A stretch of 49,486 nucleotides of DNA from a virus, in IMG/VR virus record IMGVR_UViG_3300033997_000544, positions 1-49,486 of that record; one strand, written 5' to 3'. Positions within the stretch are counted from its first letter, which is position 1. Each line of letters starts with the position of its first letter. This document shows positions 27,166 through 29,286 of the stretch, piece by piece. The position numbers were made by a program, and so were the translations under genes. The notes beneath the pieces were generated by a model. It saw only the letters and a program-made list of their open reading frames with translations, searched no databases and had not been told where the DNA came from.

Positions 27166-27786
27166 TCACCCTGGAAGTTCGGCCAGCTTTGCCGCGCTGA
27201 ATGCAGGTTCCCAAGTGGCCAGGTCTTCATTCTGCGGCCGCCAGGGCAGCGCTTCACCGCGCGCCAGCCGCGCCAGCGCCTCGGAAAAGAGCCGCAGACC
27301 CAACGGGGCAAGATCGCGGCGCCACAGCACCGCCGCCGTGTCCCCCGGCAGGACATGACACCAGCCCTGCACGATGATCGGCCCCGTGTCGGCGCCGTCG
27401 TCCATCCGGTACAAGGTGCCGCCGGTGACGGGCTCGCGCATGTGCAAGGCCCACCGGATAGCGTCGCGCCCGCGGTGACGCGGCAACAGCGACGGGTGAT
27501 AGCCCAGCGCGCCGTGCTTCGCCCGCGCCCGCGCCGCCCCGTCGATGAAGCAATGCGCGTGCGCCGCCAGCAGAACATCGCATCCCGCCGGGACGTCGCG
27601 CGCCACCAGCCGCCCGCGTACCGTGCGCACGGGAACGCCCAACTGCTGCGCGGCGGCGTAGAGCCGGTCGTATTCCTCGCCCACTGCGGGCGGTGCTGCA
27701 GCGGCCACCACCTGGTGGCCCTCCGCGATGCACTGGCGGAGCAGCTCCGCGCCCAGCCACTTTTGGCCCACGATCATCACGCGCAT
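27166..27786 (-). CDS. Formyltransferase-like protein of the Com operon
   Basis: The 206-aa protein has the formyltransferase fold: a Rossmann-like start (MRVMIVGQKWLGAELLRQC), YHPSLLPRHRGRDAIRW (residues 96-112) and DDGADTGPIIVQ (129-140). Canonical members use Asn-x-His plus Asp; here His97 and Asp133 are present but the Asn position is Gly95. It could transfer a one-carbon group from a folate, possibly onto a modified base or an intermediate. It overlaps the ABC-GNAT gene by 10 bases. A role in DNA modification is inferred from context; a sugar- or amino-formylating role is also possible. Confidence 0.8.
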   Translation of the reverse strand: MRVMIVGQKWLGAELLRQCIAEGHQVVAAAAPPAVGEEYDRLYAAAQQLGVPVRTVRGRLVARDVPAGCDVLLAAHAHCFIDGAARARAKHGALGYHPSLLPRHRGRDAIRWALHMREPVTGGTLYRMDDGADTGPIIVQGWCHVLPGDTAAVLWRRDLAPLGLRLFSEALARLARGEALPWRPQNEDLATWEPAFSAAKLAELPG

Positions 27787-28898
27787 GCCGGCTCCCCCAG
27801 GTAGCGGAAGCCCTGCACGGCGCGGAAATGGCCGCCGTAGCCGCTGCCGGCGGTCTGCTGGCCCTTACGCGCCGCGCTTTGGCGCAGCGTAGCCACGCAC
27901 CGCGCCTTGCTTTCCCCATGGAGTGAGCCAGATACCTGCGTCCACCGCCGATCGCGGCGCAGCGCCGCTGCCAGGCCGGGGTGGCTGGTGTGGAACAGCG
28001 TCCGCAGAGGCAAGCCGTACCTGTTCTTGCCCGCCAGCCAGGCCGCGCAGACCGCATTCAGGAAGCGCATGCCCACGCCGGCGCCCTGCCATTCCGGCAT
28101 GACCACCAGGCGGCAGGCGCGAGCTTCGACCAGGCCCGGCCTGGTGCTGACGGCCAGGTGCGCGACAGGCTCGCCGCCGATCCAGGCCACGTAGTTCGAG
28201 GCCGCGATCATCTTGGGCAGCTTCAGATAGTGATGCGGCTCAAAATGCGGCCACCACCGCCAGTCGGTCTGTTCGATGTCCACGTCCAGGCGCGGCCGGC
28301 GTCGAACCGACCCCCGATCAAACTGGCCGGTCGCCGTGTCAAACACCCAGTCCGGCTGCAACCAATCCAGCACGTCGTAGTGGCAGGACAGCAGCACGGC
28401 CTGGCCGCCGGTGCGCCGCCACGCCTTGGCGAATGCACCGGCGCCGACGCGCGCAATCTGCCGATCGACCACAGAGCTGAACTCGTCGACGACCGTCAGC
28501 GCCGGCGCCTCGACGACCAGGCGCGCCAGGTTGGCGCGGAATTGCTCGCCGTTGGACAGGACGCCGTAGGGCCGCAGCCACGCGGGCACGCTGCCCAGGC
28601 CGACCGCCGACAGCGCGGCAGTGACCTCGTCGAAAGCGCCAGTAGGCGCGATCGCGTCGATGATCGGCGTGTCTGCCGGCCAGGCCGGCGCGTACAGCGG
28701 CGCAATCGCGCGGCCGATGCTGGTCTTGCCTGAGCCGGACGGCCCCACCACGACGCCAATGCGCCAGTCCTCGTCGTCGATCGCCAGGTCCACGTCCAGG
28801 TCGAAAGCGGCGCCCGAATCAACGTTGAAGAGGGATTTCACGCGCGCCGCGCGGTAGCTTTCCGCTTCCGGGCAGCGGTGTTGAATGGACACTTTCAT
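27777..28898 (-). CDS. ABC-type ATPase fused to GNAT acyltransferase (possible Mom-type)
   Basis: The 373-aa protein joins two domains. Residues 20-195 form an ABC ATPase: Walker A GPSGSGKTS (52-60), signature-like LSNGEQ (114-119), Walker B ALTVVDE (133-139), H-loop His173 (LLSCHYD). Residues 205-335 are GNAT-like: EPHHYLKLPK (220-229), a beta core WIGGEPVAHLAV, and acyl-CoA motif A VVMPEWQGAGVGMRFL (265-280). There are no membrane segments, so it is not a transporter. In phage Mu the gene controlled by Com is Mom, a GNAT-fold protein that modifies adenine; this would be a Mom-type enzyme with an ATPase partner built in. The function is inference. Confidence 0.78.
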   Translation of the reverse strand: MKVSIQHRCPEAESYRAARVKSLFNVDSGAAFDLDVDLAIDDEDWRIGVVVGPSGSGKTSIGRAIAPLYAPAWPADTPIIDAIAPTGAFDEVTAALSAVGLGSVPAWLRPYGVLSNGEQFRANLARLVVEAPALTVVDEFSSVVDRQIARVGAGAFAKAWRRTGGQAVLLSCHYDVLDWLQPDWVFDTATGQFDRGSVRRRPRLDVDIEQTDWRWWPHFEPHHYLKLPKMIAASNYVAWIGGEPVAHLAVSTRPGLVEARACRLVVMPEWQGAGVGMRFLNAVCAAWLAGKNRYGLPLRTLFHTSHPGLAAALRRDRRWTQVSGSLHGESKARCVATLRQSAARKGQQTAGSGYGGHFRAVQGFRYLGEPACA

Positions 28899-29071
28899 AC
28901 GGCCACCACCTTCAGGCGGTGGCCCTGTGCGCGCAGCTCGTCGAATACGCGCTGCTGGTGACCTTCGTCATCGCACAACACGATCACGCCGAAGCGCGGC
29001 TTGTACTTGAAACCGTTGGCGCCCGGCTGCTTACGCGCCGGCGCCGTGGTGATATGGCCGTTGTCCTCCAT
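28895..29071 (-). CDS. 58-aa protein between Com and the ABC-GNAT gene
   Basis: ATG 29071 has AGAGGAA eight bases upstream and the ORF ends with an ATGA overlap onto the next gene. It overlaps com by 41 bases in another frame. The sequence has a short charged start, then FKYKPRFGVIVLCDDEG (residues 22-38) and HRLKVVAV at the end, a compact alpha/beta pattern. I do not know a function; it may be a partner of the ABC-GNAT protein. Its start codon lies in a predicted RNA hairpin, so it would be the first target of Com control. Confidence 0.72.
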   Translation of the reverse strand: MEDNGHITTAPARKQPGANGFKYKPRFGVIVLCDDEGHQQRVFDELRAQGHRLKVVAV

Positions 29072-29255
29072 GCCTGTGTTCCTCTGGGCTGGATGCTCGA
29101 CGGCATGCTGGTTTGTGGCTCTCGGCGCTCTGGGCGCTCTCGGCCATCGAAAACGCGTTCACGGTCTTGCACCGCGAACATTTGATACTGAGCCGGGCAT
29201 AGCCGGCGGCTTCGGCGAGCTTGCGCCCGCAATTGACACAACGAACGGTTTCCAT
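29031..29255 (-). CDS. com: Com-like zinc-finger translational regulator
   Basis: The 74-aa protein starts METVRCVNCGRKLAEA, and Cys6-x2-Cys9 with Cys26-x2-Cys29 (IKCSRCKTVN) forms the zinc knuckle of the Mu Com family. In Mu, Com binds mom mRNA and opens a stem-loop so that mom is translated. Here com overlaps the next ORF by 41 bases in a different frame, as com and mom overlap in Mu. ATG 29255 gives the family start; GTG 29261 is a possible alternative. The tail after residue 40 is His/Arg-rich and not conserved-looking. Downstream genes are a putative modification set. Confidence 0.85.
   Translation of the reverse strand: METVRCVNCGRKLAEAAGYARLSIKCSRCKTVNAFSMAESAQSAESHKPACRRASSPEEHRHGGQRPYHHGAGA
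29054..29106 (-). promoter_or_regulatory. Predicted mRNA stem-loop over the 58-aa ORF start
   Basis: On the minus-strand mRNA, AUGCCGU (29106-29100) can pair with ACGGCCAU (29061-29054, one bulged C), and UCCAGCC (29093-29087) with GGC-A-UGGA (29074-29067, bulged A). The 12-base apical loop holds the Shine-Dalgarno AGAGGAA, and the AUG at 29071-29069 lies in the inner stem. It lies inside the 3' part of com. The design matches the translation-inhibitory stem-loop opened by Com in phage Mu. The pairing was done by eye, with no energy calculation. Confidence 0.5.
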
Positions 29256-29286
29256 GAGCACTAGTAAATTTGTGTTACCGTTGGCC

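Follow-up and report, generated by a model that had tools for sequence, protein, structure and literature searches.

A predicted Com-responsive translational switch before an ABC-GNAT operon, and covarying hairpins linked to phage com genes

The window, that is, the whole 49,486-nt stretch of virus record IMGVR_UViG_3300033997_000544, carries on its minus strand a com homologue followed by a series of overlapping genes:

29031 to 29261, minus strand: com, a zinc-ribbon Com homologue of 76 aa when read from GTG; the likelier start is the ATG at 29255
28895 to 29071, minus strand: 58-aa gene with the proposed controlled start, PHROG 28816 (E 1.9e-20), no function known
27777 to 28898, minus strand: ABC-ATPase plus GNAT gene, PF00005 and PF00583 above cut-off
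27166 to 27786, minus strand: formyltransferase-like gene, the last of the overlapping genes, PF00551 (E 9.5e-19)

The com product matched Pfam PF10122 (Zn_ribbon_Com) above the cut-off (E 1.2e-7) and PHROG 6417, annotated 'translational regulator' (E 2.6e-14). As in a Mu-type Com switch, this com, with its CCCC zinc ribbon, lies directly upstream of the target start and overlaps the target: the com stop at 29031 lies 38 nt beyond the start codon of the 58-aa gene at 29071. A sequence-only reading of this DNA had proposed an RNA switch over that start, inside the com 3' end, and its placement agrees with the gene coordinates (com 29261-29031, next start 29071). The gene that would be controlled is not mom. 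It is the 58-aa gene of PHROG 28816, which shares an ATGA overlap with the following ABC-GNAT gene of PHROG 11143 (E 2.9e-159), a family without known function. The same reading had called these modification genes, a label that agrees with a published prediction of acyl modification of a DNA base by ABC ATPase-GNAT proteins (excerpts of PMC7824862, citing Iyer et al. 2013); the function remains a predicted one. AlphaFold modelled the 58-aa protein at a mean pLDDT of 78, confidently in its C-terminal half, and one helix was assigned. Foldseek returned ABC ATPases as the best matches of the ABC-GNAT model, with low TM-scores in the top rows, and a Mom entry was absent among the 50 PDB matches listed.

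We collected 83 ABC-GNAT loci, consisting of the best 80 of 525 relatives in viral contigs and three bacterial contigs. In this sample, tblastn found the 58-aa gene beside ABC-GNAT at 82 loci, and com was found at 72 of the 83. The 58-aa domain forms the C-terminal end of a longer frame in the com-less loci L051 (2254-3001) and L064 (1349-2357), and these longer frames look ParB-like. The Gordonia phage NHagos carries a ParB-like annotation at its 58-aa match. In the phage records JD024, UMP151, Mcat6, Bise and PAN70 (loci L085, L089, L092, L096 and L097), a com CDS is not listed at the match; com is often unannotated in deposited phages.

Two hairpins in the com 3' end and several strands around the 58-aa start make up the putative control region:

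29125 to 29137, minus strand: hairpin A, the upstream operator, GCGC-CCAGA-GCGC
29093 to 29106, minus strand: hairpin B, the proposed Com-binding site, AUGC-CGUCGA-GCAU, in the com 3' end
29087 to 29092 with 29068 to 29074, minus strand: inner, translation-inhibition-like stem, CCAGCC with GGC-A-UGG, 12-nt loop, -6.2 kcal/mol alone
29080 to 29085, minus strand: Shine-Dalgarno sequence AGAGGA in that loop, anti-Shine-Dalgarno duplex -6.0 kcal/mol
29070 to 29074, minus strand: GGCAU across the start codon, able to pair with the hairpin B 5' arm AUGCC (29106-29102)
29054 to 29061, minus strand: 3' strand of an outer stem, ACGGCCAU, a competitor of hairpin B that is not conserved

The native Com target in phage Mu is GAAUGCCUGCGAGCAUCCC, a hairpin bound by Com experimentally, and excerpts of the same report give the Com motif as CC(N)2-3GAG within the loop of a hairpin that has a closing C-G pair, and the bipartite SELEX motif of Mu Com as NGAGNNCC(N2)GAGNNCCNN (PMC6483171). 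The hairpin B region equals the native Mu site in 15 of 19 bases, and AUGC-CGUCGA-GCAU presents the CC(N)2-3GAG motif with its C-G closing pair upstream of the start. All four pairs of hairpin B (29106-29103 with 29096-29093) were intact in 11 of 11 close relatives. Around hairpin A, the stretch 29122-29140 fits the whole bipartite SELEX motif. At the usual spacing, the hairpin A copy (29128-29116) has two of four pairs, and a perfect copy lies 9 nt further upstream. The region 29116-29146 (minus strand) consists of overlapping 9-nt repeats GCC[G/C]AGAGC, so that a number of Com-type motifs overlap one another ahead of hairpin B; the same repeat motifs occur in the close relatives of the window.

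To place these hairpins in a family, we assembled a first set of 97 starts, of which 14 came from phage records (among them Mu, JD024, B3, KS5 and UMP151) and the others from the window and 82 of the 83 loci. Clustering at 85% identity left 74 representatives, of which 65 had com and nine were scored as com-less. A hairpin with a C-N2-GA or C-N3-GA loop is present upstream of nearly all com-bearing starts. With at least three Watson-Crick pairs it was found in 59 of the 65 com representatives (mean 4.25, maximum 11 in 200 shuffled sets), and with at least four pairs in 50 of 65 (mean 1.12, maximum 5 in 200 sets), whereas elsewhere in the same loci only 98 of 8273 windows held one of at least four pairs. 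When all 331 loop motifs were taken with no choice on pairing, 78 had four Watson-Crick pairs, compared with 9.2 (maximum 18) after arms were permuted between loci; the paired motifs of this set comprise 18 arm types. By the strict rule, both hairpins were absent in six of the 65 com representatives (L050, L056, L062, L074, L078 and L090). The hairpin is linked to com: it occurred in 0 of 8 com-less representatives, first scored as 0 of 9, a count corrected because L069 carries a com that tblastn had missed, together with a wobble version of the hairpin. Hairpin B falls in all three com reading frames (33, 17 and 5 cases in the first set, and 29, 13 and 3 in the second, described below), so that the constraint acts on the RNA and the Com amino-acid sequence offers no explanation for it. 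In L013, L019, L020, L028 and L082, hairpin B closes its loop with G-C, while C-G is invariant in SELEX with Mu Com, which suggests, from these sequences, a changed specificity of the Com proteins in that group.

A second, independent set was retrieved by Com alone (the best 80 of 420, 80 of 176 and 80 of 89 matches). It gave 235 new com loci, of which 233 had the motif and 229 were long enough; removal of 47 that resembled the first set and of redundancy left 68. Within 100 nt after the zinc ribbon, a hairpin of at least three pairs was found in 63 of 68 loci (shuffles 5.3, maximum 11), compared with 4 of 68 upstream of com, and one of at least four pairs in 58 of 68 (shuffles 1.35, maximum 6), compared with 1 of 68 upstream of com. 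The next genes of these loci are mostly DNA methylases (33 B3-like, 8 KS5-like, 5 Chuche-like, 2 Bise-like and 1 ARM81-like), accompanied by four mom-like genes, one ABC-GNAT gene and 14 that were initially unassigned. Eleven different genes among these 14 were scanned, ten with Pfam and ten with PHROGs, with L129, L145 and L283 left out. The scans revealed further methylases in L101, L108, L114 (a weak PHROG match) and L131 (PF01555) and a lectin-type family common to L175 and L210; the remaining scanned genes encode a baseplate protein or proteins of no known function. An extra hairpin (for example GCGGAA..TTCCGC) stands between the Com operators and the Shine-Dalgarno sequence in L175 (2100-2192), L210, L217, L146 and L230. 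In these loci the cargo is lectin-type, baseplate or of no known function, and its start is found close to or beyond the com stop. It is possible that com loci with an extra hairpin before lectin-type or baseplate genes form a sub-type.

The two arms of the operators covary. Across 60 tandem operators, double changes were observed at all eight pairs, and the covariation score was 0.551 compared with 0.173 in shuffled alignments (0 of 500 as high). Since these rows were picked for at least three paired bases per hairpin, their 99.6% of paired cells is not independent evidence; the motif counts of the first set and the counts in the 68 independent loci serve as the unselected tests of pairing. 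We further built a covariance model, R1, from 60 of the 61 listed operators (L054 left out), from which the window's group and Mu had been excluded beforehand. R1 matched the window at 29092-29129 with 28.6 bits (E 0.0016 in 282 kb). It matched at the operator in 25 of 36 com sources and in 0 of 10 com-less sources. The 11 com sources that it missed include Mu, which has one hairpin only. L069 was matched at E 0.84, and three off-site matches had E 0.48-0.7. Rfam gave no match in the whole window at the gathering score and none at E<=1 for 28980-29280. Taken together with the Mu precedent, the hairpin counts, the covariation and the link with com make it very probable that the Com made by the phage lands on these hairpins. 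That the Com encoded in the window binds them, and that binding raises translation, we infer from Mu.

The structure proposed by the sequence-only reading was a different one, a two-part stem in which the AUG is paired and a 12-nt loop holds the Shine-Dalgarno sequence. Its pairs do exist on the minus strand: AUGCCGU (29106-29100) can pair with ACGGCCAU (29061-29054), and UCCAGCC (29093-29087) with GGC-A-UGGA (29074-29067). The minimum free energy fold of the 53 nt (-16.5 kcal/mol) has the proposed shape, with AGAGGA in the 12-nt loop and the AUG (29071-29069) in the stem. Compared with dinucleotide shuffles, the fold energy stands out only modestly (the exact 53 nt gave z -2.06; z -1.10, -1.95, -3.40 and -1.51 for four longer contexts), and in the last of these contexts, 29004-29136, a different fold is preferred. 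The two parts of the stem fared differently in the alignment of close relatives, which comprises 11 rows with the window included. The inner stem was intact in ten of them (L005 has one G/A) and otherwise invariant, and it yields no covariation because close relatives hardly vary there. The outer stem, in contrast, kept all seven pairs only in the window and L003 and was broken in the other nine rows. Its pair 29100:29061 is C/A in seven of the 11 rows, L005 and L009 lack 29101:29060, and L004 lacks 29106:29054; one compensated change in L005 (U-A to C-G) stands next to a broken pair. For the outer stem, a probability near 0 was predicted in L005 and, when long contexts were folded, in L009 (0.00) and L006 (0.02). 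We thus rejected the outer stem as a conserved switch. It is at most one of two competing OFF folds in the window, because it uses the hairpin B 5' arm and is not kept in relatives. The reading had looked to covariation in homologues as its test of Com dependence, and the outcome divides in the same way: covariation across the family is massive and supports the link with Com, whereas the outer stem is not maintained. Its broader idea, control by Com through RNA structure, is upheld by the Mu-like hairpin, the family covariation and the lack of the hairpin in com-less loci, but the structure it proposed is not the conserved one.

By energy calculation, the folds available to this RNA compete. 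The outer stem and hairpin B are mutually exclusive because both need the AUGCC 5' arm. In the free window RNA, the two-part stem reaches -15.6 kcal/mol, compared with -8.0 kcal/mol for the Com hairpin plus the inner stem, and hairpin B is predicted at about 0 at equilibrium in the full free RNA. It forms with a probability of 0.80-0.94 only in short transcripts starting at 29112 and ending at 29093-29085; in longer ones, AUGCC pairs instead with GGCAU, which spans the start codon, or with the outer-stem strand ACGGC. The pairing of GGCAU with AUGCC reaches a probability of up to 1.00 in partial transcripts, in competition with the two-part stem. The Mu hairpin is likewise low by prediction, at 0.01-0.19 in most long contexts and 0.43 in one.

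Co-adaptation of start regions with their upstream sequences was assessed by swapping upstream halves between loci; the z-scores are upper estimates, because the loci are related to one another. Native 58-aa start regions were less accessible than the chimeras (z -5.0) and had a more stable fold (z -7.9). The same swap at the ABC start gave z +0.9 for accessibility and z -3.0 for stability, and at five sites inside the ABC gene z -1.0 to 0.0 and z -1.9 to +0.4, respectively. In 56 of the 65 com representatives, pairing of the hairpin 3' arms with the start region was 0.43 in native sequences and 0.23 in chimeras for hairpin A, and 0.33 and 0.25 for hairpin B, and it exceeded 0.4 in 37 of 56 loci. 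Enforcing the hairpins increased start accessibility by 0.096 in native sequences compared with 0.036 in chimeras (z 4.3), at a cost of 6.3 compared with 3.9 kcal/mol (z 7.5; n=41 of 49 strict representatives). The independent loci behaved similarly, with a gain of 0.100 compared with 0.034 (z 5.7) and a cost of 5.4 compared with 3.0 kcal/mol (z 8.9; n=57, since starts were placed in 66 of the 68 loci and 57 of these had a hairpin in -80..-16). With the hairpins formed, native and chimeric starts were equally open (0.518 and 0.506 for n=41; 0.507 and 0.506 for n=57), which in these folding models is the expectation for a mutually exclusive switch. A stem holding the start codon (29087-29092 with 29068-29074) is predicted in the window as in Mu, in addition to this family-wide co-adaptation.

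We consider it quite probable that the window carries a Com-responsive, mutually exclusive translational switch of the Mu com-mom kind before the 58-aa/ABC-GNAT/formyltransferase operon. The Com operators would be the two hairpins, A and B, of the com 3' end. Without Com, the hairpin B 5' arm AUGCC would be captured by GGCAU over the AUG or, alternatively, by ACGGC in the outer stem stacked on CCAGCC:GGC-UGG, and either pairing would hide the AUG. Com, made first, would accumulate and bind the C-N3-GA loop, holding hairpin B closed and withdrawing the arm, so that only the -6.2 kcal/mol stem would remain and ribosomes could start. As the free RNA prefers the two-part stem, Com would have to pay for the formation of hairpin B or bind during RNA synthesis. 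Other family members would use different strands by the same logic, and in many loci the hairpin 3' arm would cover the Shine-Dalgarno sequence.

An alternative is plain translational coupling, in which ribosomes on com traverse the 58-aa start and open the stem, making the Com protein unnecessary. The arrangement of the genes suits it, since most com loci, the window among them, have the controlled start inside com, and the com stop of the window lies downstream of that start. Coupling would leave unexplained the conserved C-N2/3-GA loop, its match to the SELEX and native sites of Mu Com, the covariation of hairpins that passing ribosomes would open and their absence from com-less loci; we regard it as unlikely to be the whole explanation, and it may operate alongside Com. 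Less probable still is the original proposal as it stood, in which the single outer plus inner stem is the structure opened by Com. It describes the lowest-energy fold of the 53 nt, dominant in several contexts, but it contains no Com loop and its outer stem occupies the strand that the Com hairpin needs as its 5' arm, quite apart from the loss of that stem in most relatives.

The hairpins lie inside or just behind the com frame, a position that would also suit feedback on com itself, either by limiting com translation or by stabilising the RNA, with effects on the next gene being secondary. Such feedback alone would not require the observed co-adaptation of starts with upstream sequences, and the effect described for Mu in excerpts of PMC6483171 is on mom; we consider it very improbable as the main function. 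The Com-responsive, mutually exclusive switch thus remains our preferred explanation of the locus.

Compared with Mu com-mom, the window shares a zinc-ribbon Com gene overlapping the target start, an AUGC-(6 nt)-GCAU hairpin in the com 3' end, and a neighbouring stem that pairs the start codon and carries the Shine-Dalgarno sequence in its loop; the inner stem is analogous in position to CCCAC...GUGGG of Mu. It differs in its target, the 58-aa/ABC-GNAT/formyltransferase operon, and in having two operator hairpins. The hairpin and the inhibitory stem of Mu stand side by side and are compatible, whereas in the window the hairpin B arm is shared, so that the folds exclude each other; many relatives of the window, unlike Mu, also share one strand between folds. 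Other com-linked genes, namely the B3/UMP151 methylases, the KS5 methylase and Pseudomonas lectin-like bacteriocins, carry com genes of one family with that of the window and share its operator hairpins, but differ in their downstream genes. CsrA/RsmA and the phage MS2 coat protein also bind hairpin operators at starts, mainly repressing by covering the start. These small proteins likewise read a hairpin loop motif near the start codon, but they are unrelated to Com, and here the bound hairpin is proposed to free the start.

Published accounts disagree as to which form of RNA, hairpin or duplex, Com favours (excerpts of PMC6483171). In Pseudomonas syringae, a com stop mutation left lscB expression unchanged (data not shown; PMC3899960, section 2.6), a result that counts against the generality of a Com switch. 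A 2018 review considered the wider role of Com-like proteins as still to be explored (excerpts of PMC6240691). Within the open-licence literature, we found neither an account of operators of this kind before com-linked genes other than those of Mu nor a report of the mutual-exclusion mechanism for Mu. The Mu logic is known, and the proposed shared-strand switch with a tandem operator is apparently new and general.

Until now, Com has been treated as an oddity of phage Mu. On balance we favour, with somewhat less assurance than for the window itself, the view that com-linked genes share an RNA element family of tandem Com operators, spaced by about 22 nt and with arms that also serve as strands covering the Shine-Dalgarno sequence or the start, so that binding of one zinc-ribbon protein would throw a two-state switch before diverse cargo. 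If so, the cargo of the switch would comprise N6 and N4/N6 methylases, Mom, ABC-GNAT systems and lectin-type proteins, and the element would be a portable expression module that phages attach to late-needed genes. Because the covarying operator can be read from sequence, it predicts which genes are Com-controlled and which bases are important. It also suggests a general way for phages to delay self-modifying or cargo genes.
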